Source: Deltaproteobacteria bacterium (GTDB taxonomy: Bacteria; Myxococcota_A; UBA9160; UBA4427). Taken from it: 37,230 bases of DNA. Location of the stretch: positions 1 to 37,230 of the forward strand of contig JAJDAN010000041.1 of assembly GCA_029261855.1 (NCBI GenBank), written 5' to 3'. The notes beneath the pieces are model-generated. The model worked only from the letters and a program-made list of their open reading frames with translations. It was not told the DNA's origin and ran no database searches. Within the stretch, counting starts at the first letter, position 1. Every line of letters starts with the position of its first letter. Position numbers and translations under genes: made by a program. Of the stretch, positions 10,435 through 35,318 are shown one piece after another.

Positions 10435-10534
10435 CGAGCGTAGTGCGGTCAAAGCGTGGCATGCCAGGAATCGACCATCCATTCGGCACCCGGTAGATAC
10501 CGGAGGGCACGAGCGTCGTCTTCCTTCGCCACAG

Positions 10535-10759
10535 CGGCGGCCCGGGTTCCCTGCTGCGTCGCAGGAATTTCCCTATTCAGCGGCGCAGGGAAAATGCCTG
10601 CCAGGGCCGCTAGAACGGGTCGAATTCGAGAGACTGGCCGCGCCGGAAGCCGGAATCCGGACGATTTCCCTGTACTTTCCCTGCAGATCAGGGAACAGGT
10701 ACGGGGGACGAGTTCGCTCTCGACTCCACCCACCGCCATTCAGTCTGCGGGAGTAGAGA
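10535..10759 (+). repeat. transposon-derived repeat, copy B
   Basis: A 94-bp core at 10666-10759 matches copy A (1429-1521) over almost its whole length. It begins with TTCCCTGTACTTTCCCT and a following CAGGGAA half, then GACGAGTTCGC, CACCCACCGCCAT and CAGTCTGC. Upstream from about 10535 there are further TTCCCTG and CAGGGAA motifs in the same order as in copy A, though more diverged. No transposase remnant is recognisable here. It lies 468 bases before the start of a secreted HAF-repeat gene on the same strand, and just upstream of the divergent APH-like gene. Confidence 0.6.
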
Positions 10760-10997
10760 CTCCCCGCGCGCACTCCGGCACAGGCTGGGAAATCTCCGCG
10801 ATTCCGGGGGGCCTTGGCCTCCTTGCCCGGCCGTTCGGAACCAGAGAGCGCGGCGTCAGGGCCTGAACGAGCCCGCCGGGCACATTCGTCTCTGTTGGCA
10901 GTTCGTCCCGGTTCGGATTCGCTTTCGATTCGCCTACGGTCGCCTCAGGACCTCTCGATCGCCTGCCCCGAGAACGCCCGGCCCCTCCATCGTAGGC

Positions 10998-11046
10998 TTC
11001 GCTGGCGCCAGCGAACGGGCTCAGCCGAGGCTCGCGAAGCGAGCCT
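10998..11046. promoter_or_regulatory. two adjacent palindromes upstream of the HAF gene
   Basis: An 18-bp perfect palindrome, TTCGCTGGC followed by GCCAGCGAA, lies at 10998-11015. Twelve bases later a hairpin has 8-bp arms AGGCTCGC/GCGAGCCT around a GAA loop (11028-11046). Both are in the 468-base leader between repeat copy B and the HAF-repeat gene. They could be a regulator-binding site or a structured RNA leader. The sequence alone does not tell which. Confidence 0.35.
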
Positions 11047-11227
11047 GTTTCGCGAATCGGAGCAGAGAACCTCGGGCGCTCGGGTCTGGTGCTGTGTGAG
11101 GTCGCTCCGGACTGAGGAGCAGCGCGTTGGTTCCCGCAAGTTGCGAAAGGCGATTCGTGTGGTACCCAGACCTGCGCCCCCCGGGAGATCCCGTGAGTGT
11201 CTCACCACCCGGATACCTGGAGGGGCC

Positions 11228-19511: not shown

Positions 19512-20561
19512 TGTGGGTCCCAAAGACGTTGTTTACACCTGAGGGTGCTCTCTGAGGAACAATGGGGTTGTTCGAAGACCTCAACGACCTCAGAGAGGGA
19601 ACCCTCAAGTGCAACTGCATCCTAACGCGAGACTGACTCCTTCGGCGCGGCGTCTGCTGGTCGATCGAGTGGATCAAGAACAGTGGCCGGTAGCTCGAGC
19701 GGCACGGGCAGCCGGTGTAAGCCGGCAGACCGCCCACAAGTGGCTCCGACGGTTCCGGGAGGGCGGCGCGAAGGCGCTTGCCGACCGAAGCTCCCGGCCC
19801 CGGCGGATCCCGGTGCGAACGCCCCAGCGGGCGATCCGCCGCATGGAGCAGCTTCGGCGGCGCCGCAAGGCGGGCTGGGAGATCAGTCAGGAGATCGGGG
19901 TCCCGCTCTCCACCGTCTCCAAGCACCTCAAAGCCATCGGTCTCGGTCGGATCTGGAGGCTCGAGGAGGAGCAGGATCCTCCCCGGCGCTATGAGCACGC
20001 GGCGCCCGGCGACATGTTCCATATCGACGCCAAGAAGCTGGCTCGCATCGACGGCGTCGGCCACCGGATCCACGGCGATCGGAGCCGCAAGAAGCGCGGC
20101 GTGGGCTACGAAGTCGTCTTCGTCTGCGTCGATGACCACACGCGCCTGGCCTACGCCGAGGTGCATCCAGCCGAGAGCGCGAAGTACGCCATTCGCTTCT
20201 TCCGAAACGCGCTTCGGTGGTTCAAACGCCTCGGCATCTCGTGCAAACGGCTGCTGACCGATCGAGCCAAGTGCTACGCCGACTCCCAGGCCTTCCGGAG
20301 CTTCTGTGTCGATCACGACGTCCGACAGTGCTTCACCCGGCCGTACACGCCCCAGACCAACGGCAAGGCAGAGCGCTTCATCCAGACCCTCACCCGCCGT
20401 TGGGCCTACCGCAGGCCCTACCGCAGCTCAGCAATCCGCTCCGCCTCGCTGCCAGCCTGGATCAAGCACTACAATCACCAGCGACCCCACCGGGAGCTCG
20501 GCAAGAGGCCGCCGTTCGCTCGGCTCAGAGAGGCACGTCAACAACGTGCATAGGTCCCACA
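19512..20561 (+). mobile_element. intact IS481-family insertion sequence (1050 bp)
   Basis: The ends are TGT...ACA, with imperfect terminal inverted repeats of about 25 bp: the left reads TGTGGGTCCCAAAGACGTTG and the right, on the opposite strand, TGTGGGACCTATGCACGTTG. About 19 of 25 positions match. One transposase gene fills the element, and its length is close to IS481 itself. CCTAGG is duplicated on both sides, so the insertion is probably recent or at least undisturbed. The target lies at the stop codon of an ABC-permease remnant (20563-20672). Confidence 0.88.
19609..20553 (+). CDS. IS481-family transposase
   Basis: The 314-residue protein starts at GTG 19609, after a GAGAGGGA-type ribosome-binding site. 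It has the family-typical opening HPNARLTPSARRLLVDRV, a helix-turn-helix at about 25-50 (VARAARAAGVSRQTAHKWLR), and an rve catalytic core. Catalytic residues are D140 (FHIDAKKL), D218 (LLTDRAKCY) and E255 (NGKAERFIQTL). The C-terminal YNHQRPHRELGKRPPF motif is also typical. The length is near the usual 315-350 and nothing essential is missing, so it looks functional. Confidence 0.92.
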   Translation: MQLHPNARLTPSARRLLVDRVDQEQWPVARAARAAGVSRQTAHKWLRRFREGGAKALADRSSRPRRIPVRTPQRAIRRMEQLRRRRKAGWEISQEIGVPLSTVSKHLKAIGLGRIWRLEEEQDPPRRYEHAAPGDMFHIDAKKLARIDGVGHRIHGDRSRKKRGVGYEVVFVCVDDHTRLAYAEVHPAESAKYAIRFFRNALRWFKRLGISCKRLLTDRAKCYADSQAFRSFCVDHDVRQCFTRPYTPQTNGKAERFIQTLTRRWAYRRPYRSSAIRSASLPAWIKHYNHQRPHRELGKRPPFARLREARQQRA

Positions 20562-20832: not shown

Positions 20833-21327
20833 TCAGTCCTCGTTGGAGTGTTGCGTCGAACTCACGGCTGCTGGGCTGTTGACATAGGCGCTGGCCGCGC
20901 CGTGTTTGTAGACGAGCTCCCCGCCGCTGTGGCCTACCGAGATCCCGGCCGCGAGGACAGCGAGCGTCGCGAGTGTTCCGGCGGCGCGGCCGACTGCACC
21001 CGGCCGCCCGGGCAGCAGGCCCGCCCCGGTCACGAGCAATCCGATTCCGGCGAGGAGGAGGAAGCGTTCCGCTGCCTCTTCGTGGGCCTCGATGTGGCGT
21101 TCCGCCACGACGCGCTCGACTCGATCCTCCTGCTCTTCGCCGGTTTCGAGCGCGAGCCAGCCGCTGCCGATGAGCAACGCCTGCAGCAGGACGATCAGCG
21201 CCCAGCTCCGGGATGGGAGAAATCCCTTGTGGATCAAGAAGATGCCGAGGATGGCGAGGCCTGGGATCAAGATCGCAAGTGCGATCGGGAGATGAACGAC
21301 GGCGGGGTGTAGGGGATCGGGCATCAT
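20833..21327 (-). CDS. DUF2231-like four-helix membrane protein
   Basis: This is a 164-residue integral membrane protein. ATG 21327 has GGAGGA at 8 bases; a second ATG follows at once. The N-terminal PDPLHPAVVHLPIAL motif is the DUF2231 hallmark, with His residues that may bind haem or metal. Four hydrophobic segments follow (IALAILIPGLAILGIFLI, ALIVLLQALLIGSGWLAL, FLLLAGIGLLVTGAGLL, AAGTLATLAVLAAGISV), and the conserved GHSGGELVYKHGAA comes near the C-terminus. DUF2231 proteins have no firmly known role. The gene is divergent from the LuxR-RND operon with 115 bases between, so it is probably co-regulated with the efflux locus. Confidence 0.8.
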   Translation of the reverse strand: MMPDPLHPAVVHLPIALAILIPGLAILGIFLIHKGFLPSRSWALIVLLQALLIGSGWLALETGEEQEDRVERVVAERHIEAHEEAAERFLLLAGIGLLVTGAGLLPGRPGAVGRAAGTLATLAVLAAGISVGHSGGELVYKHGAASAYVNSPAAVSSTQHSNED

Positions 21328-21442
21328 TGGGACGGTCCTCCGGTCTGGTGTTTGCACAGGTAGTTTGGCTGCAGACGCCCAGATGCCCATCCGCCAGATG
21401 CCGGAGGACGCGTTTACGGGCCGTTGGCGAAAGGAGGGCCCG
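21328..21442. promoter_or_regulatory. divergent promoter region of the efflux locus
   Basis: These 115 bases separate the divergent DUF2231-like gene and the LuxR-type regulator gene. Promoters for both units must lie here or in the adjoining coding ends. I could not identify convincing -35/-10 pairs or an operator by eye. The regulator encoded at 21443 is the natural candidate to act here. Confidence 0.5.
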
Positions 21443-21973
21443 ATGGGTCCGACGGATGCCGGAGTGCGGTTTCGATGGCTGGCGACAGTCTTGCTCGGCG
21501 CGATCGCCACAGGCGGGGTCGTCGACCTCGCCCTGGACCAACCGACCCCACTCTGGAGCTTTCACGTTCTCTTCGAAGTCGGTCTGCTGATCGTCTCTCT
21601 GGCTGCCGTGGCGTACCTGTGGCTCGGCTGGCGAGACGCCAGCGATTCGCTCGAGCGGACCCGCATGGAGCTCGAAGCCAGGGGCGCCGAGCGCGACGCC
21701 TGGCGCTCCCGGGCCGAGAAGATCCTGCGCGGTCTTGGCGAAGAGATCGATACCCAGCTTCGGGACTGGGGCCTCACGCCGGTCGAGCGCGAGACGGCCC
21801 TGCTCCTGCTCAAGGGCTATGGCCACAAGGAGATTGCGACGCTTCAAGGGAAGAGCGAAAGAACCGTTCGCCAGCACGCAGTGGCCGTGTATCGGAAGTC
21901 GGGGCTCTCCGGGCGCGCCGAGCTCTCCGCGTTCTTCCTCGAGGATCTCCTCCTGCCCGGCGGTGAGGAGTAG
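21443..21973 (+). CDS. membrane-anchored LuxR-family transcriptional regulator
   Basis: ATG 21443 follows AAGGAGGG, a strong ribosome-binding site; the frame is open upstream but begins without one. The 176-residue product has two transmembrane helices (FRWLATVLLGAIATGGVVDL at about 10-30 and VGLLIVSLAAVAYLWLGW at about 48-65). A charged coiled-coil linker follows (residues 68-112), then a C-terminal LuxR-type HTH (LTPVERETALLLLKGYGHKE, then SERTVRQHAVAVYRKSGLSG). The effector domain thus faces the cytoplasm while tied to the membrane. It has no receiver domain. The RND permease gene starts 5 bases after its stop, so it likely controls its own efflux operon, perhaps sensing the membrane or a partner protein. 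Confidence 0.85.
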   Translation: MGPTDAGVRFRWLATVLLGAIATGGVVDLALDQPTPLWSFHVLFEVGLLIVSLAAVAYLWLGWRDASDSLERTRMELEARGAERDAWRSRAEKILRGLGEEIDTQLRDWGLTPVERETALLLLKGYGHKEIATLQGKSERTVRQHAVAVYRKSGLSGRAELSAFFLEDLLLPGGEE

Positions 21974-21978
21974 GGAAG

Positions 21979-24900
21979 GTGGCCGAGGCGTCGGAGCCCA
22001 GGAGTCGGTTGCCTTTTCTCACGCGCGTGGTCGACCTGTTCCTGCGCGGACGGCTCCCGCCGATCCTGATCGCCGTTTCGGTGGCGGCGGGTGTCGTCGC
22101 GCTCGTAGCGACTCCGCGCGAGGAAGAGCCCCAGATCGTCGTCCCGATGGCGGACGTACACGTCCTGGCCCCGGGACTTCCCGTACCGGAAGTCGAGCGC
22201 CAGATCGCCACCCGGCTCGAGAAGCTGCTGTTGCAGATCGACGGCGTCGAGCACGTCTACTCGATGTCGCTACCCGGTCGCGCGGTGGTCACCGTGCGCT
22301 TCTACGTCGGCGAGGATCGAGAGGACAGCCTCGTCAAGATCTACAACAAGATCTACTCGAACACGGACCAGATCCCTCCGGCCGTGCGCTCCTGGGTCGT
22401 CAAGCCGATCGAGATCGATGACGTTCCGATCCTGATCGCCACGCTCTGGAGCGAGCGACCGGAATTGATCGATGACTTCGCGCTCCGTCGGATCGCGGAG
22501 GAACTCGAGATCGAGCTGCAGGCCGTCGTCGAAACGAATCGGACAGGAGTCGTGGGCGGCCGGCCGCGTGTGGTGCGTGTGGAGCTCGACCCGGACGCGC
22601 TCGCCGCCCGTCAGACCTCGGCACTGGAGGTCGCCTGGGCGCTCGGTGTCTCCAACGTTCGCCGGTCGGCAGGCGGCTTCGACCGGCGCGACGCCTTCAC
22701 CGTCGTCGAAGCGGGCGACTTCTTCGGCGACGCGGCGGCTGTCAGCCGCACCGTGGTAAACGTCATAGATGGCATCCCCGTCACGCTCGACGCCGTCGCC
22801 GAGGTATTGGACGGCCCGGCGGAGCGCGAAAGCTATAGCTGGATCGGCTTCGGAGCGGGCGAGAGAGGGGTGGAAGGAGAGCGCGGCTCCGAGGTGGAAC
22901 GGTCGGCGTTCTTTCCCGCCGTGCATATCGCCGTCGCGAAGCAGAAGGGCAGCAACGCTGTCTGGGTGGCGGATCGCGTTGAGGCCCGCATCGAAGAGCT
23001 GGTCGGTACCTTGTTACCGGCCGGCGTTCACATGCGCATCACGCGGAACTACGGCGAGACAGCCAACGACAAGGTCAACGAGCTCCTCGAAGCGTTCGCG
23101 GTCGCCATCCTCATCGTGATCGCGCTCATTGCCTACAGCCTCGGCTGGCGCGAGGGACTGGTGGTGGCCGTGGCCGTTCCGATCACCTTCGCGCTGACGC
23201 TGCTGCTGAACTACTGGGCCGGATACACGATCAACCGGGTCACGCTCTTCGCCCTGATTCTGTCACTCGGCCTCGTCGTCGACGACCCGATCGTCGATGT
23301 CGAGAACATCTACCGGCACCTGCGAATGGGCCTCGAGTCTCCACTCGATGCGGTGCGCACAGCCGTGAACGAGGTGCGGCCGCCGATCCTACTCTCGACG
23401 CTGGTGGTCATCGCGTCCTTTCTGCCGTTGGCGTTCATCACCGGAATGATGGGGCCCTACATGCGGCCGATGGCGCTCAACGTTCCGGTAGCCGTCGTGA
23501 TGTCGACGGTCGTGGCGCTGACGATCACGCCCTGGCTGGCGTACCGGGCGCTACGGGCGAACGCAGTCGCCGACGGCATGGCAGCCGGGTCGGCCGTGAA
23601 CGAATCGGGCACCTACCGCTTCTACGAGCGTCTCCTGGGTCGCTTCCTGGACGATCGACGCGCGGCGTGGGCTCTTTTCGGAACGATGGTGGTGCTGTTC
23701 GCAGGGGCTGCGATGCTGGTGGCACTTCGCGCCGTTCCCCTCAAGATGCTTCCCTTCGACAACAAGAACGAGCTGCAGATTCTGGTCGACGCCCCCGAAG
23801 ACTTCAGCCTCGAGCGCACCGACGCGACCGCGCGCCGGCTTGCCGAGGTCCTGCGGAGCGCCCCGGAGGTTCGCGACTTCGAGATCTACACAGGTGTCGC
23901 CTCGCCGATGGACTTCAACGGGATGGTGCGCCACTACTTCTTGCGTCGCGGCGCGAACGTGGCCGAGATCCGGGTGAATCTTTTGCCCAAACGTCGGCGC
24001 GAGATGCAGTCGCACGAGATTGCGCTGAGGCTGCGATCGCAGCTCGAAGAGGTAGCCCGCGCAGCGGGCGCGAAGATCAAGCTCGTCGAGGTGCCGCCCG
24101 GACCGCCCGTGCTCGCGACGCTCACGGCGGTCGTCTCGGGGGCGCCAGATGTTCCTTATGAGCAGATTCGCGAAGGAGCGCGTGCGCTCGAGGCCCGGCT
24201 CGCGCGCGAGCCCGCAGTGCGTGACGTCGATTCCACGGTGGAGGACGACGCCCCCCGGCTCCTGTTCGTTACGGACCAGGAGAAGGCTGCGCTCTCCGGC
24301 GTGGCCGCCGCGGACATCGCCGAGACGATCGAGATCGCCCTGTCCGGCCGCGATGTCACGCAGCTGCACGTTCCAGGCGAGGTGAACCCCCTCGCGATCC
24401 GCCTGCGGCTGCCCCGTGCAACACGCTCCGGCCACGGGCCGTTGCTCGCGCTGTCGGTCAAAGGGCGCCCGGGAATCGTCAAGACTCGGGAGAACGGTGG
24501 CGTGCGCGACGCTCCCATTCCGGTCGTCCGCCTGGGCGAGCTCGGACGCTTCGATGCCGTTGCGGCGGAGAAGGCGATCTACCGCAAGGACCTGCGACGG
24601 GTCGCCTACGTGTACGCCGAGCCGGTGGGGCGCGCGCCCGCCGAGGTCGCTGCCGACGTTGCCGCCGACCTGAGAGGCCTTGGGAAGGAGCCTGCGGCGA
24701 ATCGCGGACTCCGGCCCGTGTCGGAGCGCACCTATCTCAGGAGCGGTGGTGGCATTCCATGGTCGCTCCCGCCGGGAACGCAGGTGGACTGGCTCAGCGA
24801 GGGAGAGCTCGAGATCACCCGTGACGTCTTCCGCGACCTCGGGATCGCCTTCGGCGTCGCACTTCTCGGGATCTACGGGATTTTGATCTACCAGACCGGC

Positions 24901-25389
24901 AGCTATGCGATGCCGCTCATTCTGATGATCTCGATTCCGCTCACCCTGATCGGGATCATGCCCGGGTTCTGGTTGCTGTCGGCGCTGTTCGGCAAGGACG
25001 TAGGCGGTTTCGCGAACCCGACCTTCTTCACGGCGACGGCAATGATTGGGATGATCGCGCTGGCCGGGATCGCCGTGCGCAACGCCATCCTGTTGATCGA
25101 ATTCCTCCACGTCGCACTGCGTCGGGGCGCGCCACTCCGCGAGGCGCTTCTCGAGGCCGGCGCGGTCCGTACGCGACCGATCCTGCTGACGGCGGGTACG
25201 GCGATGCTCGCGGCGATCCCGATTACGCTCGACCCGATCTTCTCGGGCCTCGCATGGGCGCTGATCTTCGGCCTGCTCGTCTCGACGGCATTCACCCTGC
25301 TCGTCGTCCCGGTCGCGTACTACCGCGTGTACCGGGATCGACCCGGGCACGGACTGCGCGATGCGGATCCTACGGAGGAGACGAGATGA
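21979..25389 (+). CDS. RND-family efflux permease
   Basis: This 1136-residue protein starts at GTG 21979, with AGGAG/GGGAAG upstream. It has the RND double-repeat layout: a first membrane helix at about 27-45, a large periplasmic loop, a block of helices (about 370-540), a second helix near 575, a second periplasmic loop, and a C-terminal helix block (about 950-1115). The proton-relay acidic pair is present as D435-D436 in GLVVDDPIVDVENIY, matching D407/D408 of AcrB. The size and the segment PGRAVVTVRFYVGEDREDSL suit the HAE/CusA superfamily. It should export a substrate from periplasm or membrane using proton flow. The adaptor gene follows with an ATGA overlap; no outer-membrane TolC gene is in the window. 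Confidence 0.9.
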   Translation: MAEASEPRSRLPFLTRVVDLFLRGRLPPILIAVSVAAGVVALVATPREEEPQIVVPMADVHVLAPGLPVPEVERQIATRLEKLLLQIDGVEHVYSMSLPGRAVVTVRFYVGEDREDSLVKIYNKIYSNTDQIPPAVRSWVVKPIEIDDVPILIATLWSERPELIDDFALRRIAEELEIELQAVVETNRTGVVGGRPRVVRVELDPDALAARQTSALEVAWALGVSNVRRSAGGFDRRDAFTVVEAGDFFGDAAAVSRTVVNVIDGIPVTLDAVAEVLDGPAERESYSWIGFGAGERGVEGERGSEVERSAFFPAVHIAVAKQKGSNAVWVADRVEARIEELVGTLLPAGVHMRITRNYGETANDKVNELLEAFAVAILIVIALIAYSLGWREGLVVAVAVPITFALTLLLNYWAGYTINRVTLFALILSLGLVVDDPIVDVENIYRHLRMGLESPLDAVRTAVNEVRPPILLSTLVVIASFLPLAFITGMMGPYMRPMALNVPVAVVMSTVVALTITPWLAYRALRANAVADGMAAGSAVNESGTYRFYERLLGRFLDDRRAAWALFGTMVVLFAGAAMLVALRAVPLKMLPFDNKNELQILVDAPEDFSLERTDATARRLAEVLRSAPEVRDFEIYTGVASPMDFNGMVRHYFLRRGANVAEIRVNLLPKRRREMQSHEIALRLRSQLEEVARAAGAKIKLVEVPPGPPVLATLTAVVSGAPDVPYEQIREGARALEARLAREPAVRDVDSTVEDDAPRLLFVTDQEKAALSGVAAADIAETIEIALSGRDVTQLHVPGEVNPLAIRLRLPRATRSGHGPLLALSVKGRPGIVKTRENGGVRDAPIPVVRLGELGRFDAVAAEKAIYRKDLRRVAYVYAEPVGRAPAEVAADVAADLRGLGKEPAANRGLRPVSERTYLRSGGGIPWSLPPGTQVDWLSEGELEITRDVFRDLGIAFGVALLGIYGILIYQTGSYAMPLILMISIPLTLIGIMPGFWLLSALFGKDVGGFANPTFFTATAMIGMIALAGIAVRNAILLIEFLHVALRRGAPLREALLEAGAVRTRPILLTAGTAMLAAIPITLDPIFSGLAWALIFGLLVSTAFTLLVVPVAYYRVYRDRPGHGLRDADPTEETR

Positions 25390-26951
25390 CTCAAGCCGTC
25401 CGACGAGGGCTCGAAGCCGCCCTCGGCATAGCGGTCGTGACTGCGGCCGTAATGTGGCTGTCCGGCGCGTTCGAGGAACGCGTTTCGCCCGGCGAGGTCG
25501 ATGTCGCGGCGCGCAGTGTCTCCGACGCCGGCAGTGCTGTTGTCGAGGAAGTCTCGGAGCCAGCCGTCGAGTGGGCCAGCGGAGAGGTCGCGTCGGCGCG
25601 GCACACGGCCGTCGCGTCCCGCGTGCTGGCTCGGATCGAGGAGGTTCGCATCCGTGCGGGTGCCTCCGTCTCGAAAGGGGACGTGCTTCTCGTGCTGGAC
25701 GCGCGCGACCTTCGCGCGCGCGTTGGCGAGGCCGAAGAGATGCTGCGCTCGAGCGAGGCTCGGCTCGAGCTCGCGCAGCGCGAGCACACCCGCACCGAGG
25801 CGCTCGCTCGCACGGGGGTCGCACCCCAGCAACGTCTGGACGAGACGACGTCCGCCCTGCGGTCGGCCCGCGCGGAGGTCGCCGCCCGACGGGAAGCCCT
25901 CGGCGAGGCGAGGACGGCGGCCTCGTTCGCCGAGATCCGCTCGCCGGTCAGTGGCCGCGTCATCGACCGCCTCGCAGAGCCCGGAGATACCGCAGTGCCG
26001 GGCCGGCCGCTCTTGCGGATCTACGATCCCACCCTCCTGCGTGTGGAAGCGCCGGTGCGAGAATCGCTTGCTGTGACGCTCGAGGTGGGGGACTCGCTTG
26101 CCGTCGACGTTCCGGCACTGGGCGAGCCCGTGGACGGACGCATCGACGAGATCGTTCCGTTCGCCGAGCCCGGGGCGCGCACGCTGCTCGTCAAAGTGAG
26201 CCTGCCTCGCAGCGACGCGCGGCTGTTCGCGGGGATGTTCGCCCGTGTCGCGATCCCCGCCGGCGAGCGCTGGCGTCTGCTCGTGCCCGGGGCAGCCATC
26301 GAACGCGTCGGTCAGCTCGAGTACGTGACGGTGCTCGCCGCCGGCGACGTGCCCGAGCGCCGCCTCGTCACGACCGGAGAGCCTGCACTGGCGGGCCGCG
26401 TCGAAGTGCTGAGCGGCCTCCAGGCAGGCGAGCGTGTGCGTGTGTCGAAGAAGGTGACCGCCGCGTCGCCCGGCGGGCTCTCCGCAGCCGCGGCGGCAAT
26501 CGCCCAGGTTCGCGCCGAGCTCGGGCAGGCCTTGCGCGAAGCGCTCGCGCAGGGACCCGAAGCGGCCCTCGAGGTCTGCCGCCTCGAGGCGCCTCGACTG
26601 GTCGGGGTCGCCGCAGCCCGGGGGATCATCGTCGGTCGCACCAGCCATCGCCTCCGCAACCCCGCCAATGCGCCGGAGGACTGGATGATCCCGGTGCTGG
26701 AAGAATTCCAGCGAGGCGAGCCGCAGCCGGGAAGCTCGCGAGTAGTGGACCTTGGCGCTCGAGGCGCGGGCTACGTGGAGCCCATCTACTTGCTGCCCGC
26801 ATGCGCGACGTGCCACGGCGAGGACGTAGATCCCGTTCTGCTCTCGCGCATCCAGGAACACTACCCCGACGATCAGGCCGTCGGCTTCCGCGTTGGCGAG
26901 TTCCGCGGACTCTTCTGGGCCGTGGTCGAAGGAAGCTCCACCGTTGAGTAG
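25386..26951 (+). CDS. RND periplasmic adaptor fused to a DUF3365-like c-type haem domain
   Basis: ATG 25386 overlaps the permease stop as ATGA, which fixes the start. The 521-residue protein has an N-terminal membrane helix (ALGIAVVTAAVMWL, 12-25). The adaptor region spans about 65-355: a lipoyl half-motif (ARIEEVRIRAGASVSKGDVL), a coiled-coil hairpin (about 112-178), a second lipoyl half (EIRSPVSGRVIDRLAEPGDT) and a beta-barrel. After about residue 370 a second domain resembles DUF3365/Tll0287-type haem proteins, with ALEVCRLEAPRL, RNPANAPEDWM, the haem-attachment motif CATCH (473-477) and the family-like ending YPDDQAVGFRVGEFRGLFW. Normal adaptors end after the barrel, so this is a fusion, placing a possible haem at the pump. 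Confidence 0.88.
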   Translation: MTQAVRRGLEAALGIAVVTAAVMWLSGAFEERVSPGEVDVAARSVSDAGSAVVEEVSEPAVEWASGEVASARHTAVASRVLARIEEVRIRAGASVSKGDVLLVLDARDLRARVGEAEEMLRSSEARLELAQREHTRTEALARTGVAPQQRLDETTSALRSARAEVAARREALGEARTAASFAEIRSPVSGRVIDRLAEPGDTAVPGRPLLRIYDPTLLRVEAPVRESLAVTLEVGDSLAVDVPALGEPVDGRIDEIVPFAEPGARTLLVKVSLPRSDARLFAGMFARVAIPAGERWRLLVPGAAIERVGQLEYVTVLAAGDVPERRLVTTGEPALAGRVEVLSGLQAGERVRVSKKVTAASPGGLSAAAAAIAQVRAELGQALREALAQGPEAALEVCRLEAPRLVGVAAARGIIVGRTSHRLRNPANAPEDWMIPVLEEFQRGEPQPGSSRVVDLGARGAGYVEPIYLLPACATCHGEDVDPVLLSRIQEHYPDDQAVGFRVGEFRGLFWAVVEGSSTVE

Positions 26952-27384
26952 GCGAGGTGAGCCGAGCACCAGCGAGCCTGCGACGAAGAGATCTCGTGCT
27001 GCTTGGACCACAGGGGCCGCGCTCGTCGCCGCGGGCTTTGGCCTGTTGACGATCCGGGAGGCCAGCGCCGTGCTGTTCGGCGATGGAGTCGCACGCGAGG
27101 CCGCAGGCCACTACGTGCCCTTCGTGTTGTGGTTCAACTTCGCCGCCGGCTTCGCCTACGTCGCTGCCGGGATCGGTCTGGGACTTCGGCAGCGCTGGGC
27201 GGTCGCGCTGGCCTTTGCAATCGCTGCCGCGACGCTCGTCGTGTTCGCGGCCTTCGGAGTACACGTCGCTTCGGGACGAGACTATGAGCTGCGCACGGTC
27301 ATCGCGATGGCCCTGCGCAGCAGCGTGTGGCTCGCCCTCTCCGCGGTTGCCTACCGGTTCGTGCTCAGACCGAGAGCAGAGTGA
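26944..27384 (+). CDS. four-helix membrane protein of unknown function
   Basis: TTG 26944 overlaps the last codons of the adaptor gene and has AAGGAAG 9 bases upstream; an earlier TTG at 26893 is less likely. The 146-residue product has four hydrophobic segments (ALVAAGFGLLTIREASAVLF, VLWFNFAAGFAYVAAGIGL, AVALAFAIAAATLVVFAAFG, SSVWLALSAVAYRFVL), with YELRT and HYVPFVLWFNF motifs that recur in uncharacterised proteobacterial proteins. It is the last gene of the operon and is probably an inner-membrane accessory of the pump; that role is inferred only from position. Confidence 0.72.
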   Translation: MSRRGEPSTSEPATKRSRAAWTTGAALVAAGFGLLTIREASAVLFGDGVAREAAGHYVPFVLWFNFAAGFAYVAAGIGLGLRQRWAVALAFAIAAATLVVFAAFGVHVASGRDYELRTVIAMALRSSVWLALSAVAYRFVLRPRAE

Positions 27385-27741: not shown

Positions 27742-29592
27742 TCAGCGTTGGGCAGACTGGCGAGTACCCTCGAGCGTGGCGATGCGGCCGAGGACGGCGT
27801 CCTGAGCCGCCTCGAGTGCTGCGATCTGACCACGCAGTGCGTCGTTGCCGTCGGCGAGTTCGCTCACGGCCGCGACGACCGGGGCGATGAGGCTGGAGTA
27901 GTCGACCAGCCGGAAGCCCTCGTCGTCGTAGGAGACGGCTTCGGGGTAGACGGCCTCGACCTCCTGCGCCATCAATCCGAGCTTGCGCGGCCCATCCGGC
28001 GTGGACTTCATGCGAAAGGAGTAGGCGTCGAGGCTTCGGACCCGGCGCAGCGAATCTTCGAGTGGCACGATGTCGGTCTTGAGGCGGCGGTCCGAAGCGA
28101 CGTTGTAGCTGGATGCCAGCACTGGGCCGTAGCCGGCGCCGCCGTCGCCGACATAGACCCCGCCCCCGCTAAACCAGCTCAAGTAGATCGAACCGTGGTC
28201 GGTGTCCAGATGGAAGTTTCCTCCCACACCGCTGTGGCGCAGTGATCCATAGTACTGGTCGAGCGGATCCCTGATCGTCATCGTTCCCGCCGCAGTGACC
28301 GAGAGCGCGGGTTTGTTCGTACCGGGCGCGTAGATCGAGTACTCGATGCCCCGGTCATAGCGGGTGATCCAGGTATTCGTCACGTCGTCGTAGTGGCCGA
28401 ATTGCCCGCCCTTGGACATCGTCACGTACTCCCCGTCGATGCTGTAGCCGGCCCACGTGCCCTTCCCGTCTCCGTTGATCTGAACGGATCCGTAGTCACC
28501 CGTTGGGTAGGAGAGATAATTTTCGGCATTGTCGACATAGAGCCGGCCTTCGGCGTACAGGTCATCGGTGAACCGACCCGTGCCGTTCACATCCAACTTA
28601 TGGGCCGGTGCGGGCGTCGCGATTCCCACATTGCCGACGTTGTCGATGTGCACAGCCGCTGAAGCTTGGCCGTTTCGGATCTCGTAGTAGACGTTGCGCC
28701 AGCTCACCGTGATCCAATTGTTGACGGCATCGTCGTAGAGGCCGAAGAGATTCGCGCCATCCGTCATCATCGCGTAGTTGCCGTCGATGCTGAATCCCTC
28801 GTAAGCGTTCTTGCCCCCACCGTTGATCTGAACGGAGCCGAAGTCTCCGGTCGGGTGCGACAGGTAATTGGTCGTGTTGTCGACATAGAGTCGGTCCAGC
28901 GCGAAGAGGTTGCCGAAGAACTCGCCCGTGGTGGCCTCCAACGAGTCGACCGCAGTGATGTCGTTGCCGTTCATGACGAGGTCGCCATTCATGCTGCCGC
29001 CGGTTTTCAGCAAGTACTGAGGATGGTCGTCATCCCCGAGGCCGCCCAGCAGCCCGTGCTCGAGTTGCCCTACATCGTCATCCGTGATCGAGCCGTCGAG
29101 GATCTCGCTCGAGCCAATGCCGCTCACGTCGAGGGTCACGACACCGCTCGAGCCGCCGCCCGACAAGCCCACGCCCGCGATCACCCCGGTGATATCACCA
29201 CTTCCGAACGGCTCGCAGACCACAGTGCCGTCCTCGTTGACCGCTCGGATCGCCTCCGCGACCGGGCACCCCTGCCCGACGCGTTGCTGGATTACGCTCG
29301 GGTCGACAGCGAGCGACACCGCGCCGCTCGCACCGCCGCCGGAAAGCCCGTACCCGGCCGTGACCTCGCTGATGTCGCCCCCGAGTAGCTCGATCGCGGC
29401 GATGCGCGAATCCTGGGCGTTGCTCTCGAGCACCAGCGTGTCGAAGTTGGCGTTCACCTCATCCGCGTCGGCGGGTGTCCCGTTCGAGAAGGCGTACGGC
29501 ATCGAGATGGTGGACGCGACCGCCGGCGTGATCCAAAGGAACGACAACAGCGACAGCAGCAGCGTGCGGGGGCTTCGAGTCAGGGAATACAT
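27742..29592 (-). CDS. secreted fibre-like protein with C-terminal S74 chaperone/peptidase domain
   Basis: This 616-residue protein starts at ATG 29592, with AGGA 7 bases upstream. A signal peptide (LLLSLLSFLWITPAVAS) is followed by a segment shared with its neighbour (FSNGTPADADEVNANFDTLV) and by Gly-rich beta repeats (SGGGASGAVSLAVD, GSVQINGGGKNA) like trimeric phage or host fibres. The C-terminal peptidase S74 intramolecular chaperone domain is clear. The catalytic Ser-Lys dyad is S500 and K505 in ASDRRLKTDI, then LGLMAQEVEAVYPEAVSYDD and a final coiled coil. The domain trimerises, helps the fibre fold and then cuts itself off before Ser. A host-encoded, signal-peptide version suggests a surface or extracellular trimeric fibre. 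Confidence 0.85.
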   Translation of the reverse strand: MYSLTRSPRTLLLSLLSFLWITPAVASTISMPYAFSNGTPADADEVNANFDTLVLESNAQDSRIAAIELLGGDISEVTAGYGLSGGGASGAVSLAVDPSVIQQRVGQGCPVAEAIRAVNEDGTVVCEPFGSGDITGVIAGVGLSGGGSSGVVTLDVSGIGSSEILDGSITDDDVGQLEHGLLGGLGDDDHPQYLLKTGGSMNGDLVMNGNDITAVDSLEATTGEFFGNLFALDRLYVDNTTNYLSHPTGDFGSVQINGGGKNAYEGFSIDGNYAMMTDGANLFGLYDDAVNNWITVSWRNVYYEIRNGQASAAVHIDNVGNVGIATPAPAHKLDVNGTGRFTDDLYAEGRLYVDNAENYLSYPTGDYGSVQINGDGKGTWAGYSIDGEYVTMSKGGQFGHYDDVTNTWITRYDRGIEYSIYAPGTNKPALSVTAAGTMTIRDPLDQYYGSLRHSGVGGNFHLDTDHGSIYLSWFSGGGVYVGDGGAGYGPVLASSYNVASDRRLKTDIVPLEDSLRRVRSLDAYSFRMKSTPDGPRKLGLMAQEVEAVYPEAVSYDDEGFRLVDYSSLIAPVVAAVSELADGNDALRGQIAALEAAQDAVLGRIATLEGTRQSAQR

Positions 29593-29605
29593 GGGTGTTC
29601 CTATT

Positions 29606-29624
29606 AGAGATCAACCCGATCTCT
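29606..29624. other. intercistronic hairpin between the two S74 genes
   Basis: Perfect 7-bp arms AGAGATC/GATCTCT around a 5-base loop lie in the 52-base gap between the paralogues, upstream of the ribosome-binding site of the 29592 gene. It could be a partial terminator or an RNA-processing site setting the ratio of the two products. Confidence 0.4.
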
Positions 29625-29644
29625 CTGGGATCCGATCCAGGATG

Positions 29645-31492
29645 TTAGTTTGCGTGCCTGTCGGTGAGTTCGAGGGCGGCGAGTCTCTCCAGCAGCTCGG
29701 ACTGCCTCTCTACGAGCATCTTGGCCCGGGCGCGAAGCGCGTCGTTCTCCAAGGCGAGCTCGCGGGCACTCGCGACGAGTGGCCCGACCAGAGCCGAGTA
29801 GTCGACCAGTCGGAAGCCGCGATCGTCGTAAGAGACGACTTCCGGGTAGACCGCCTCCACCTCTTGCGCCATCAAACCGAGTCGTCGCGGTGCGTCGGGC
29901 GCCGACTTCAGGCGGAAGGCATAGGCGTCGAGGCCTCGGAGTCGGGGCAGCACCGCCTCCACCCGTGCGATCTCCGACTTGAGCCGGCGATCCGATGGAA
30001 CCCCGAAGGTGGCGGCCCTGATCGAACCGTAGCCGGCGGACCCGTTGCCCACCACGATGCCCCCGCTGCCACCGTCCATGCCCAGCCCGATCTGGCCGCC
30101 ATAGGTATCGATGTGAAAGTTCCCGGCGGCTCCGCTGTGGCGAAGCGAACCCATGAGCTGCATGCCCAAATTGCCCACGTAGGTACTTCCGGAGGTGTCG
30201 ATCTGGAGGGCGTCCACTGCTGCGGCCCCGGGGCTGCGGATCTGGTAGAACACGCCCTGTTGGTACCAGCTTATGCCGTCGTTGATCGCATCGTCCCACT
30301 CGAGCAAGCCGCTCGTCCCGGTGGCGGACGTCACCGTGAATTGAGCGCCGATGCTATAGCCCGGCCAATCCCCCACCCCCGGCCCATTGACTTGGACCGA
30401 CCCGAAATCGCCCGTTGGATATGTCAGATAGTCGTTCGCGTTGTCGACATAGAGACGCCCTTCCGCGTAGAGGTCGCCCGCGAATCGGCCCGTGCCGTCG
30501 ACCTCCAATCTGTCGAACGGCTGGTGGGTCCCGATTCCGACGTCCCCGTTCGCATCAACGTGAAGGGCGACGGCGGAGGAGCCGGGCGTCATGATCTGAT
30601 AGTGCTGACCACGCGAGTAGAAGCTGATCCAGCGCTGCATCACGTCGTCGTAGAGCCCCAGAAAGGTGTTGCCCGCCCTCAACCCGTACGCGCCGTCGAT
30701 GAAGAGCCCCTGACTGCCATTCTTACCCGTGCCGTTGATCTGCACGGACCCGAAGTCGCCGGTCGGGTATGATAGATAGTTGGTCGAGTTGCCAACGTAG
30801 ACCCTGCCCTGGGTGACGAGGGTCCCGAGATACTCGCCTTGCGTGGCGCTGAGCGAACCGACACTCAGCACGCTGTTGTCGTTCAGCGTGACGTTTCCCG
30901 ACACCGCACCGCCGGCCCTGCGCAAGTAGGGGGTGTGGACGTCGAACCCAAGGCCACCCAACAAACCGTGGTCGAGCGTGCCCACGTCCGCATCGGTGAT
31001 CGTGCCGTCGATGATCTCGCTCGAGCCGATGTCACTCACATTGAAGTTCACGTCGAGTGCGGTGCCGCCGCCGACCAGACCCGTGCCTGCAACCAACTGC
31101 GTGATCTCACTGTCTCCGACCGGGTCGCAAAAGGCACCTCCAAATTGATCGATCCCATACATCACGCTGCCGAGGGAGCAGGTTCCCGTGATGCGTCGTT
31201 GGATGGTGCCCGTGTCGATGGCGAGCGAGACGCCCCCGCTTGCACTGCCGCCGGTAAGCCCGAACCCGGCGCCGACGTCGCTGATATCGCCCCCGAGCGC
31301 CTCGACCGCGGCGATGCGAGCATCCTGGTTGTTGCTCTCCAGAACCAACGTGTCGAAATCCGCATTCACCTGGGTCGCGTCTGCGGGCGTTCCATTCGAA
31401 AAGACATGGGGGAGCGAGATCGTGGACGCTCCGACCGGTGCCGCATAGAGGACGAGCAAGGACGAGAGCAGGAGAGTAGGCAGTGAGCGCAT
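29645..31492 (-). CDS. secreted fibre-like protein with C-terminal S74 domain (tandem paralogue)
   Basis: ATG 31492 has GGAG 7 bases upstream and gives a 615-residue protein with a signal peptide (LPTLLLSSLLVLYAAPVGAS). The frame is open further upstream but unconvincing. N- and C-terminal parts closely resemble the 27742-29592 protein: FSNGTPADATQVNADFDTLV near the start, GRLYVDN and LSYPTGDFGSVQINGTGK repeats in the middle, and at the C-terminus SDRRLKSEI with S500 and K505, followed by LGLMAQEVEAVYPEVVSYDD. The central shaft differs more. The two lie in tandem with 52 bases between and probably form an operon. They could form homo- or heterotrimers. Confidence 0.85.
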   Translation of the reverse strand: MRSLPTLLLSSLLVLYAAPVGASTISLPHVFSNGTPADATQVNADFDTLVLESNNQDARIAAVEALGGDISDVGAGFGLTGGSASGGVSLAIDTGTIQRRITGTCSLGSVMYGIDQFGGAFCDPVGDSEITQLVAGTGLVGGGTALDVNFNVSDIGSSEIIDGTITDADVGTLDHGLLGGLGFDVHTPYLRRAGGAVSGNVTLNDNSVLSVGSLSATQGEYLGTLVTQGRVYVGNSTNYLSYPTGDFGSVQINGTGKNGSQGLFIDGAYGLRAGNTFLGLYDDVMQRWISFYSRGQHYQIMTPGSSAVALHVDANGDVGIGTHQPFDRLEVDGTGRFAGDLYAEGRLYVDNANDYLTYPTGDFGSVQVNGPGVGDWPGYSIGAQFTVTSATGTSGLLEWDDAINDGISWYQQGVFYQIRSPGAAAVDALQIDTSGSTYVGNLGMQLMGSLRHSGAAGNFHIDTYGGQIGLGMDGGSGGIVVGNGSAGYGSIRAATFGVPSDRRLKSEIARVEAVLPRLRGLDAYAFRLKSAPDAPRRLGLMAQEVEAVYPEVVSYDDRGFRLVDYSALVGPLVASARELALENDALRARAKMLVERQSELLERLAALELTDRHAN

Positions 31493-31541
31493 CCGTTCTC
31501 CGAGAGTCCGGCGTTGCATGAATGGCGGGGAAGAGACCGAG

Positions 31542-31784
31542 CTACCGAGACTGGCGGCGCAGCAAGCGCACGCCCACCGCAGACACGACCACACCGAGCA
31601 GGACGAAGCCCGCGGTCGGGAGAGTCGGGACCGGGAGCGCACTTCCCCAGAACATCGTCTGCCAGTCATCCCCCCAATTCCCGGCCCAGGCGGGGCCCGC
31701 CAGGAGAGCTGCGGATGAGGCGCACGCGAGATTGGCGAGCGCGCGCCATAGAAGCAATCGTGAACTGCGGTTGCGGTAGTGCAC
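31542..31784 (-). CDS. small exported protein with IPTL-CTERM-like sorting signal
   Basis: The start is set at GTG 31784, 5 bases after GGGAGG; GTG 31790, two codons earlier, is too close to that site. The 80-residue product has a signal peptide (WRALANLACASSAALLAGPA, ending WAG). Only about 20 mature residues follow before the C-terminal signal: VPTLPTAG, a hydrophobic helix (FVLLGVVVSAVGV) and RLLRRQSR. That is the IPTL-CTERM layout (motif, helix, basic end). A protein that is almost only signal peptide plus sorting tail is unusual. It lies 49 bases upstream of the S74-domain genes on the same strand and may be part of their unit. Confidence 0.65.
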   Translation of the reverse strand: MHYRNRSSRLLLWRALANLACASSAALLAGPAWAGNWGDDWQTMFWGSALPVPTLPTAGFVLLGVVVSAVGVRLLRRQSR

Positions 31785-32175
31785 CGGCACCTCCCTTTCA
31801 CATCATCGTCGGACCGACAGTCGCACCCGGGGTGCACTCGTCATCGTACACCGACTCGGCTCCCGAATTGACGCCTTTCTCTCGGGGCAGCAGCCCTCCA
31901 TCTGGCGCATCCGTGGCATGATTCAGGCAGGCGCGACCATCTGGAACGCAGCCTGCCCGGATCAGCCCAGATCGTGGATGAATTCGAGCTGCTTGCCGCC
32001 CTCCTACTTGGGTGGGGATGATGAAATCCACCTTGAAGCCCCAGGCGCCTTCGATCTCGGGCGGGCGGGCGGGACATGGGACGCGCAGGGGGCGTGAGGG
32101 TGTAGAATCAAACGAGTCTCCGATCTGGCCTGCGCCCGCGTGTAAGCCGGGAATGGAGACGAGTCGTCAGCGCTC
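31785..32175. other. 391-base divergent intergenic region
   Basis: The region separates the minus-strand IPTL-CTERM/S74 unit from the plus-strand STAND regulator gene, so it should contain both promoters. A TAGAAT at 32103-32108, about 70 bases before the regulator start, is a possible -10 box, but no good -35 lies at the proper distance. No gene of convincing composition was found. Confidence 0.4.
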
Positions 32176-35133
32176 ATGGATGCTCCTGTTGTGATCTACT
32201 CGTTCCGCGGCTTCGATCTCGATTCCGACCAGTACCAGCTACGACGACACGGCATGGTCGTGCCGGTTCAGAAGAAGGTAGTCGAGCTGCTCCTGTTGCT
32301 CGCCGCTTCGGAGCCGGGTCGTCTCGTCCCTCGTGAGGAGCTCGAGCGTTCCCTCTGGGCAGGTGTCCGCGTCGGCCCGTCGTCCTTGCGACGCCTCGTT
32401 TCGCTCGCGCGGCGCGCGCTGGGCGACGATGCATCTATCGGGACGGTTCGCGGAATCGGGTATCGCCTGGTGGCCGAGCCGGCCGCCCGGGGCGGCGATG
32501 CCGCGGGGCCCATCGACGGGAAGCTCCCGTTCGTGGGTCGAGAGCGTTCGCTGGCGTCCCTGGGCGATCGTCTTGCCGACGTGGTCAGCGGGCGCGCCCG
32601 ATGCGTCCTCGTCCGCGGAGCGCCTGGGATCGGCAAGACCCGTCTGATCGAGGTCTTTCTCGAATCCGCGGCGGCGCGCGCCGCGCAGGTGATGTGGGGA
32701 CGCTGCAGCGAAGACGTCCATGCGCCGTCGTTCTGGCCCTGGCGCCAGGTCTTCGCGGATCTGCACGATATCGAGCTCCCGGTGGGGACTCGTTCGCCGC
32801 TGATGAAGGGCGCGGATGCGGACGAGGAGGACCGTTTCCGCCTGTTCGCGAGCGTCGGGGAAAGACTGAAGGCGAAGTCGATCAGCCGGCCGCTGATCAT
32901 CGCGCTCGATGACCTCCACCGCGCCGACCGAGCGTCCCTGGCCTTGCTTCGTTTCCTGGTTTCCGAGACTTCGGGGATCCGCGCGCTCTTCGTGTGCGCA
33001 CTGCGAGACTTCGACGAAGCGACCCGGCCGGGTCGCGACGCCGTGTACGACGCCCTGGGTGATGCGTCCGAGGTCTCGTCGCTGCCCCTCGTGGGTTTGT
33101 CCCGGAGCGAAGTCGGAGCGTTCCTGCGAGAGAGCCGGTACGAGACGACGACGGAGTCGCTGCCCGAAATCGAGAAGCTCACGGCGGGCAATCCATTCTG
33201 GCTTTCGGCTCTCGTCCAGGGCCGGAACGGGACGGCGAGCATCGAAGGGAGCGTGCCGGGGCTGCGCGAGATCATCCTGCGCAGACTGCGGAAGATGTCC
33301 GAGGATGCGAGACGCCTGATCGAAGTCGCCGCGGTCGCGGGCAGGCGCTTCGAGCCTCGCATCGCGGCGAGAGCGGCCGGCATTCCGGCGAACGCAACTC
33401 TCGCTGCGCTCGCCCAGGCCGAGCAGGCGCTTCTCATCGAACCCGAAGCCGACCCCGCCTCGGCCGGGCGCTTCCGGCACGTCTTGATCTGTCAGGAGAT
33501 CGCGCAGACGCTGTCGGAAGACGAACGTCAGCGCATCCATGGACGCATCGCCGATGCGCTCGAGGCTGTTCATGGCAAGCGTTCTCCCGCTAGAGCGGCA
33601 GAGCTTGCCTATCACTGCGCACGCAGCGCCAACGGGACGCGTCGCGCGATCGACCACTGGATCCTGGCAGCGGAGCATGATCGCGGGTCCCTTGCCTGGG
33701 AGGACGCGCCGACGCATCTGCGGGCCGCTCTCGATGCCGCTGAACGTGATCACGCGGAAGACCGCCGGCTGAAGTGCAGACTGCAGATCGCCCTGGGTGA
33801 AGCATGGATGCAGGCGGGCGACCCGGATCGCGCGGAGCCGTTGTTGCGGCGCGCTGCGGAACTGGCGCGGAAGCTCGACGAGTTCGAGTTGTTCGTACGC
33901 GCTGCGCTGGCCTTGAGTCCCGACTTCTTCGGGATCGAGATCGGAGCGTTCGACCACGAACGAACGGAGATGCTGAGAGAGGCGCTCGCGACCATCGAGC
34001 CGAGCGATCTCGCACTGCGATCGGAAATCCTCTGCGCCCTGGCCATCGCCCTTTCCTGGAGCGACGCCCGAGGACAGATGACCGAGCTGGAGCAGGAAAT
34101 CGAATCGCTCGCGGGAATCGGGCTTGCCGAGACCCCGCGTCTGTATGCCGATTGCGCACGTTACGCGCTGCTGACGGATCCCTGGGAACGCGTACGGCTG
34201 GGGCGTTCCATCGTCGATCACGCCCTTGCGCTCCGCGAATACGACCTGGCACTGATCCATCGTGTCCAGTTGGTGAGCGACTATCTGGAAACCGGCGACC
34301 TGGACGCATTCGGAATCGAAGTCGCAGCGTTCGAGCGCCAGGCGATTCGCACGAAGCGCAACCAGGTTCTCTGGTACGTCCACCTCTTTGCCGCCATGCG
34401 GGCGCTCAATCGCGGTCGACTCGACGAGGAGGCAAACCGCGCGGAGGATGTCGCGCGGACGGGCTATCCGGCAGGTGATCGGAACGCGCTTCAGAGCTTC
34501 GGAGGGCACCTCGTCTTCGTGTCGACATTTCGCGACGAGTTCGCCCGGGTTCAGCCCCAGCTGAACCAGATGCTCGAATCCGTGAACTACCTCGCGACCT
34601 GGTACGCAGGGCGGGTGTGGGCATGGACCATGACCGGAGAGCCGGAGCAGGGCCGACCAGACTACGAGCGCTACGCGGTGCGAGATTTCCAGAACATTGC
34701 CCACGACCGCCTGCGCCGCGCCACACTTGCACTGTTGTGCGAGCCAGCTCTCGCGTTCGCAGATCGGCGCGCTGCGTCACTGCTCTATGACGAACTCCTG
34801 CCCCATGCGGGACTCAACTTCCAGATCGGCTTTGCGTGCATCTGCCTCGGCAGCGCTTCCCGGTATCTCGGCGTCGCGGCAAGGGCAATGGGCCATTGGG
34901 ACACTGCAGAGCGGCACTTCGAAGATGCCTTGCGCGACAATCTTCGCGGGGATGCGGTCCTCTGGGCTGCCGCGACCCTGAGGGACCACGCCGCGATGCT
35001 TGCTGCGAGAGCGGAGAATGACGATGCCGCCCGGGCGGCCCTTCTGGCGCAACGCGGCCTGCGCCTGCTCGGTCGGGAATCGGTGCCACTACTGCAGCGA
35101 CAGTTGGCACAGCTCGCGTCGCACACGGACTGA
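32176..35133 (+). CDS. winged-helix / STAND-type ATPase / TPR transcriptional regulator
   Basis: This 985-residue protein starts at ATG 32176. An N-terminal OmpR/PhoB-type winged helix (about 8-100) ends with the typical TVRGIGYRLVAEP. An AAA/STAND-like ATPase follows: FVGRERSLASLGD, Walker A GAPGIGKT at 148-155, and Walker B PLIIALDDLHRAD with D245-D246. From about 450 to the end it is helical, with TPR-like repeats (AEPLLRRAAELARKLDEFEL). No receiver domain or membrane helix is present. Proteins of this CadC/MalT-like layout switch on transcription after an inducer bound by the TPR region allows ATP-dependent oligomerisation. It precedes a shorter paralogue and diverges from the S74-fibre genes, which are possible targets; that link is inference. 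Confidence 0.86.
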   Translation: MDAPVVIYSFRGFDLDSDQYQLRRHGMVVPVQKKVVELLLLLAASEPGRLVPREELERSLWAGVRVGPSSLRRLVSLARRALGDDASIGTVRGIGYRLVAEPAARGGDAAGPIDGKLPFVGRERSLASLGDRLADVVSGRARCVLVRGAPGIGKTRLIEVFLESAAARAAQVMWGRCSEDVHAPSFWPWRQVFADLHDIELPVGTRSPLMKGADADEEDRFRLFASVGERLKAKSISRPLIIALDDLHRADRASLALLRFLVSETSGIRALFVCALRDFDEATRPGRDAVYDALGDASEVSSLPLVGLSRSEVGAFLRESRYETTTESLPEIEKLTAGNPFWLSALVQGRNGTASIEGSVPGLREIILRRLRKMSEDARRLIEVAAVAGRRFEPRIAARAAGIPANATLAALAQAEQALLIEPEADPASAGRFRHVLICQEIAQTLSEDERQRIHGRIADALEAVHGKRSPARAAELAYHCARSANGTRRAIDHWILAAEHDRGSLAWEDAPTHLRAALDAAERDHAEDRRLKCRLQIALGEAWMQAGDPDRAEPLLRRAAELARKLDEFELFVRAALALSPDFFGIEIGAFDHERTEMLREALATIEPSDLALRSEILCALAIALSWSDARGQMTELEQEIESLAGIGLAETPRLYADCARYALLTDPWERVRLGRSIVDHALALREYDLALIHRVQLVSDYLETGDLDAFGIEVAAFERQAIRTKRNQVLWYVHLFAAMRALNRGRLDEEANRAEDVARTGYPAGDRNALQSFGGHLVFVSTFRDEFARVQPQLNQMLESVNYLATWYAGRVWAWTMTGEPEQGRPDYERYAVRDFQNIAHDRLRRATLALLCEPALAFADRRAASLLYDELLPHAGLNFQIGFACICLGSASRYLGVAARAMGHWDTAERHFEDALRDNLRGDAVLWAAATLRDHAAMLAARAENDDAARAALLAQRGLRLLGRESVPLLQRQLAQLASHTD

Positions 35134-35175
35134 TTCAGCAGGCCATCGAGCAAGTCTGCGCTCTCACGGCCCCGG

Positions 35176-35208
35176 TGTGTGATCTCTGTGTGATCAATCC
35201 GTGATGCC
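35176..35208 (+). promoter_or_regulatory. three direct repeats of GTGAT at 11-bp spacing
   Basis: GTGAT occurs at 35179, 35190 and 35201, exactly 11 bases apart; the first two copies extend to TGTGTGATC. Tandem sites with an 11-bp period are the usual target of OmpR/PhoB-type winged-helix proteins bound side by side. The array lies between two genes encoding such regulators, 111 bases before the start of the second, so it may be an autoregulatory or cross-regulatory operator. Confidence 0.5.
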
Positions 35209-35318
35209 CGGCGCGCCTCGCGATGCCTTCGCTATCGGTGAGGTCGACTGACCCACGCCGGATTCTCTCGGTTCATCCACCCCAGAGTGGGATTCGGAGT
35301 GCCTGGAGATCTACGGAA

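Follow-up and report, generated by a model that had tools for sequence, protein, structure and literature searches.

We found that one gene in the window (the whole stretch of 37,230 nucleotides analyzed here) almost certainly encodes, in a single protein, a complete RND periplasmic adaptor (residues 1 to 357) followed by a haem-c Cache domain (residues 360 to 520). The second part belongs to the Tll0287/DUF3365 haem-c Cache domains, to which a 2026 preprint (PMC12889525) gave the name sCache_heme. Each half is a known family, and their combination is unreported in the literature that we searched. Searches for DUF3365 together with RND proteins, or for haem on RND adaptors, returned nothing relevant, in agreement with an earlier sequence-only reading of this DNA, which knew of no characterized example. 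The survey of sCache_heme architectures in the preprint likewise leaves efflux, RND, and HlyD unmentioned in its main text (PMC12889525). Our preferred interpretation is that a haem reactive toward redox and sulfane-sulfur compounds would be tethered to a putative efflux pump, and we estimate the probability that it plays a role there at roughly 0.5.

The fused gene lies on the forward strand at positions 25386 to 26951 and encodes 521 amino acids. It starts with ATG at 25386, ends with TAG at 26949 to 26951, and is read in an unbroken frame with no internal stop. As seen at positions 25386 to 25389, its start falls within the stop region of the permease gene, and this ATGA overlap bears out the translational coupling that had been proposed. 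Residues 3 to 25 (25392 to 25460, forward strand) form a membrane helix, with a hydropathy of 1.95 over residues 11 to 29 and a helix in the structural model; RR occurs early within it and EE after it, and the predicted topology places the N terminus inside and the remainder in the periplasm. The adaptor body, residues 42 to 357 (25509 to 26456, forward strand), was recognized by the model, by structure matching, and by Pfam and NCBIfam profiles. RND_mfp (TIGR01730) matched residues 63 to 352 (2.2e-52; 178 bits against a cutoff of 94.9), and HlyD_D23 matched residues 71 to 286 (8.7e-22). The sCache_heme domain, residues 360 to 520 (26463 to 26945, forward strand), was identified by PF11845, the Tll0287-like profile, over residues 397 to 510 (7.7e-14; 52.8 bits against a gathering score of 24.1) and by a structure match to 5b82, the PDB chain of Tll0287, which was also found by sequence alone for the C-terminal domain (1.4e-9). 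Both halves thus matched their families above curated cutoffs, so that the claims of a complete adaptor up to about residue 355 and of a DUF3365/Tll0287-type C-terminal domain withstood the profile searches that had been suggested as a check. A search of the whole host genome returned the fused gene as its sole PF11845 match.

Structure prediction, the second suggested check, gave the same picture for both parts. The full-length AlphaFold model drew on 66 sequences, every one a translation from the window or a fetched locus, and had a mean pLDDT of 92.3 and a pTM of 0.64; at that pTM, how the two parts sit relative to each other is uncertain. Within the adaptor, the model shows lipoyl halves, a helical hairpin (residues 107 to 142 and 148 to 180), a beta barrel, and a membrane-proximal domain that extends to about residue 353, after which a short linker leads into the second domain. 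Modelled residues 42 to 357 resembled adaptors of the AcrA/MexC type (9j3d, MexC-like, and 9tg4, AcrA; Z of 20.6), with 311 residues aligned at an rmsd of 8.5 Å taken over several jointed domains. Modelled residues 360 to 520 matched Tll0287 (5b82) with a Z of 17.9 over 153 aligned residues at 2.6 Å. When the C-terminal domain was modelled alone, Tll0287 was again the closest match (Z of 18.1), followed by the Cache domains of WalK (8.3) and DcuS (6.8). Chemoreceptor Cache domains were also among the lower matches to this model, and the Geobacter haem sensors GSU0582 and GSU0935 scored a Z of only about 4.

Exactly three cysteines occur in the fused protein, at positions 398, 473, and 476, and all of them fall at haem positions. 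The CATCH motif that had been noted at residues 473 to 477 was confirmed (26802 to 26816, forward strand); it is the predicted site of covalent haem-c attachment, and alignment makes H477 one predicted axial ligand. CATCH fits CxxCH, the haem-c motif by which sCache_heme domains are recognized and which is 99% conserved in the family. C398 (26577 to 26579, forward strand) is the predicted sixth, thiolate ligand and aligns in sequence with a cysteine of Tll0287 (5b82) whose status as a ligand is taken from the literature. C398, C473, C476, and H477 are invariant across the 21 aligned domains. Cytochrome c assembly proteins are also encoded in the host genome, where PF01578 has three matches. 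These sequence features suggest that the fused protein very probably carries a covalent haem c, and ligation by H477 and the C398 thiolate is likely from the family to which the domain belongs. The earlier proposal of a covalent haem serving as a redox or gas sensor or as an electron-transfer center therefore stands in part: haem c is strongly predicted from the CxxCH motif and the cytochrome c assembly genes, and a gas sensor becomes less likely with C398 retained.

The haem of Tll0287 is ligated by a cysteine and a histidine, and replacement of C59 in a stand-alone protein from Pseudomonas putida shifted its spectrum; both proteins behave as redox proteins (PMC12889525). By contrast, the axial cysteine is missing from the NO-binding signalling protein of P. 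azotoformans (PMC12889525). Since C398 is present, as is the cysteine of the two redox proteins and not of the NO-binding protein tested, the axial-cysteine criterion points to a predicted assignment of the fused domain to the redox class of sCache_heme and not to the NO-sensor class. The features of the latter are absence of the axial cysteine and fusion to HAMP, kinase, MCP, or GGDEF domains, and profile searches found no signalling domain in the fused protein. For Tll0287 itself, the abstract of the original paper reportedly discussed a redox sensor or an H2S-oxidizing system as possible roles.

The same permease-adaptor pair was found in about fourteen genomes of the host's order, three of which (the host, G016, and G080) carry the haem domain within the adaptor gene. 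In G016 the fusion is an intact open reading frame of 545 amino acids adjoining the same permease, and in G080 it is split across two contig ends, with 59 to 61% identity and the same order of parts. Because the fusion recurs in two other genomes, it is very unlikely to have arisen by chance or assembly error; the earlier argument against an assembly artefact is borne out, and a frame error is likewise ruled out by the intact G016 orthologue and the shared order of parts in G080. The haem-domain parts are under purifying selection, with a dN/dS of roughly 0.2 to 0.3, an approximate value because synonymous sites are near saturation. Linker lengths differ among the fusions. The adaptor tree groups the three fusions at one fork together with the unfused G031, and a single origin was neither demonstrated nor rejected (AU p of 0.197); in the tree of sCache_heme domains, G016 is set apart with weak support. 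Eleven of the 14 members of the order-level clade in the adaptor tree lack the haem domain, and since most members of the adaptor family do without it, transport as such does not require it.

The survey of fusion frequency that had been proposed thus returned three related genomes, the only ones with the fusion among 379 genomes of the phylum. No further fusion was found among permease relatives at 80 named loci from many phyla, nor among the matches listed for 369 gammaproteobacterial and 392 planctomycetal genomes, where only a few candidates were scored per genome; the other genomes searched numbered about 1,200 in all. Two candidates with long open frames in these genome surveys were rejected: G1055 holds a stand-alone domain, and G395 has no adaptor among its predicted genes. 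A plasmid collection yielded annotated DUF3365 proteins only, and the features listed for it included no adaptor fusion. A widespread fusion is therefore unsupported within the genomes and loci searched.

Upstream of the fused gene, the RND permease of 1,136 amino acids (21979 to 25389, forward strand; ACR_tran, 6.9e-136) is preceded by a gene for a membrane protein with a C-terminal LuxR/sigma-4-type HTH (21365 to 21973, forward strand; exact start uncertain), which is likely part of the same transcription unit. The end of the fused gene is overlapped by a small membrane protein gene with a TTG start and no assigned family (26944 to 27384, forward strand), for which no counterpart was found beside the fusions of G016 and G080. 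No TolC-type gene was seen in the operon. Several other features of the window were observed. An open reading frame for a DUF2231-like membrane protein, whose match lies just under the gathering score (20833 to 21510), is on the strand opposite to the LuxR-type regulator and overlaps the start of that frame. Two genes encode integrase-core transposases (4434 to 5546 and 19609 to 20553), the second of the IS481 type and about 0.8 kb before the regulator, permease, and adaptor group. On the reverse strand, two adjacent large proteins with similar N termini (27742 to 31837) each have a Peptidase_S74 (endosialidase chaperone) domain near the C terminus. Finally, two consecutive large regulators with N-terminal Trans_reg_C domains occupy 32176 to 37052, the first also having AAA ATPase and TPR-like parts.

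The relatives of the haem domain led us to consider sulfur chemistry. In the sCache_heme domain tree, a supported clade (96/97) comprises the three fused domains and five others, namely, a rhodanese fusion (G081), a DUF442 fusion (G004), and three stand-alone proteins. At positions 10070 to 11487 of the G004 locus L028, an ArsR gene is followed by one for a DUF442-type sulfurtransferase domain fused to sCache_heme, and these genes are oriented divergently to the RND permease-adaptor pair that also occurs in the window. In Blh, the DUF442 domain acts as a sulfurtransferase and is controlled by BigR, a repressor that responds to sulfide (PMC5823870). We also observed that the G081 protein, a rhodanese domain fused to sCache_heme (L172, 4697 to 5620), is predicted to be exported and that its gene adjoins an RND-type permease gene in convergent orientation.

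Separate sCache_heme genes occur in RND clusters of other groups. The gammaproteobacterium G661 has, in order, genes for the adaptor, the permease, an outer-membrane efflux protein (TolC), and sCache_heme, with a two-cysteine ArsR alongside. Another gammaproteobacterium, G638, has an SQR-like gene, sCache_heme, and a TolC-type outer-membrane efflux gene, divergent from ArsR, adaptor, and permease genes, its ArsR being BigR-like. A Gemmataceae locus holds, in a row, RND, rhodanese, persulfide-dioxygenase-like, SQR-like, sCache_heme, and sulfur transport genes, and its persulfide-dioxygenase-type protein is a metallo-beta-lactamase/rhodanese protein. The gammaproteobacterial RND clusters with a separate sCache_heme gene and a BigR-like ArsR occupy L176, 6328 to 13240, and L175, 3372 to 13052; the latter, in which an SQR-like gene is present, also encodes a pair of small membrane proteins resembling YeeE-type transporters.

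Across the 80 named loci, ArsR-type genes lay less than 2.5 kb from the RND pair (23 open reading frames in 22 loci) and none lay further out; SQR-like genes lay less than 5 kb from it in 7 loci and none beyond. Both persulfide-sensing cysteine positions are present in 13 of the 23 ArsR frames, and the five of these that were scanned had BigR as their best NCBIfam match, below its cutoff, as were several sulfur-gene matches relative to curated family cutoffs. RND pumps have been described near ArsR regulators responsive to sulfane sulfur (PMC12423496). A separate observation concerns the ArsR proteins of L025, L027, L028, L029, L039, L090, L108, and L120, which have an LCxxVC-like pattern near the C terminus and not the BigR cysteine pair; they adjoin RND or sCache_heme genes, and a different sensing chemistry is possible.

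The occurrence of the haem domain both as a separate gene in RND clusters and in fused form argues for two arrangements of the same partnership, suggesting that the domain works with the pump. Its predicted Cys/His haem, the sulfurtransferase fusions within its clade, and the SQR and ArsR neighbors of its relatives make redox chemistry involving reactive sulfur or thiols our leading guess. Against this sulfur reading stand the LuxR-type regulator, the absence from the window of any sulfur gene beside the fused gene and from the operon of an ArsR repressor with two sensing cysteines, the lack of a close SQR in the host genome, and the missing first persulfide-sensing cysteine in ArsR proteins of the host's order. 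We infer the sulfur link for the host, occupancy by haem, His/Cys ligation, and coupling to transport.

As a working mechanism, the adaptor would be anchored in the inner membrane, and its C terminus would leave the membrane-proximal domain beside the permease, carrying the haem-c Cache domain. The haem would be attached through C473 and C476, with H477 and the C398 thiolate as its most likely axial ligands. In the assembled pump, the adaptors might arrange these haems in a ring on the periplasmic side of the permease. There, periplasmic reactive sulfur or thiol compounds could oxidize, persulfidate, or displace the ligand cysteine, and the outcome may be a changed fit of the adaptor to the pump or the processing of thiol-type cargo during export. 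A built-in redox gate, in which oxidation or persulfidation of the cysteine switches adaptor-permease assembly or converts sulfur cargo before export, is an unlikely version of this scheme; if true, an RND efflux pump would contain a built-in cofactor-based sensor or enzyme.

Other roles for the haem domain were weighed. It could be a plain electron-transfer cytochrome in a periplasmic redox chain, with the adaptor as a convenient membrane anchor, which is conceivable but doubtful. The adaptor relatives that mostly work without a haem domain, the variable linkers, and the resemblance of the P. putida-type stand-alone domain to an electron-transfer or redox protein (PMC12889525) are all consistent with such a cytochrome, whereas separate sCache_heme genes are independently associated with RND clusters of other phyla, which suggests a functional link to the pump system beyond anchoring. 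A substrate-processing enzyme at the mouth of the pump, where it would oxidize thiols, thiosulfate, or persulfides and the pump would export the product, would agree with the chemistry performed by the Cys-ligated haem c of TsdA (PMC4423706), with clade mates fused to sulfurtransferase-type domains, and with relatives' SQR-like and persulfide-dioxygenase-like neighbors. However, no homology to TsdA or SoxA was seen, and the protein has a single haem and no electron-acceptor haem, so that this putative activity seems quite improbable.

A gas sensor for nitric oxide that gates pump assembly or activity is similarly improbable. Domains of this family fused to signalling modules do bind NO (PMC12889525), and Cache domains joined to other modules usually act as sensors; yet the tested NO-sensing protein lacks the axial cysteine that is invariant here, the modelled structure lies near Tll0287 and far from GSU0582 and GSU0935, and the fused protein has no signalling output domain. 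The axial cysteine and the structural distance disfavor NO sensing as a first choice, and a redox- or sulfur-reactive haem acting at the pump is the interpretation that we prefer.

To our knowledge, RND adaptors have been regarded as structural connectors without cofactors. The predicted covalent haem on this adaptor, conserved in related genomes and paralleled elsewhere by sCache_heme genes that stand apart in sulfide-linked RND clusters, suggests that some efflux systems form a class able to sense or process periplasmic redox or sulfur chemistry, and such pumps may respond directly to it outside the inner membrane. Stand-alone sCache_heme/DUF3365 proteins, which are largely unexplained, also gain a candidate partner in function, and what RND pumps do beside persulfide-sensing ArsR regulators becomes directly testable.

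Compared with known systems, residues 1 to 357 have the same parts as the RND adaptors of TIGR01730 (AcrA, MexA, MexC, and ZneB) and the same adjoining RND permease; however, the matched adaptors end at the membrane-proximal domain, whereas the fused protein continues into the haem domain. That domain resembles Tll0287 and the P. putida protein in its CxxCH motif, its axial-type cysteine, and its modelled fold, and shares the Tll0287-type motifs RNPxN and YPxDxAxGF. The sCache_heme domains described previously stand alone or are fused to signalling modules or a cytochrome, with none on a transporter subunit (PMC12889525). The ArsR/RND/SQR/PDO neighborhoods of BigR, SqrR, and sHdrR (PMC12423496, PMC5823870) include relatives of this RND pump, in some cases accompanied by an sCache_heme gene; the window differs in having a LuxR-type regulator and no such neighbors. 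Lastly, TsdA and SoxA share the predicted His/Cys haem ligation but belong to a different family, so that the likeness is one of working only. Their His/Cys haems carry out sulfur chemistry on the ligand cysteine (PMC4423706), which indicates that a Cys-ligated haem center can be chemically active.
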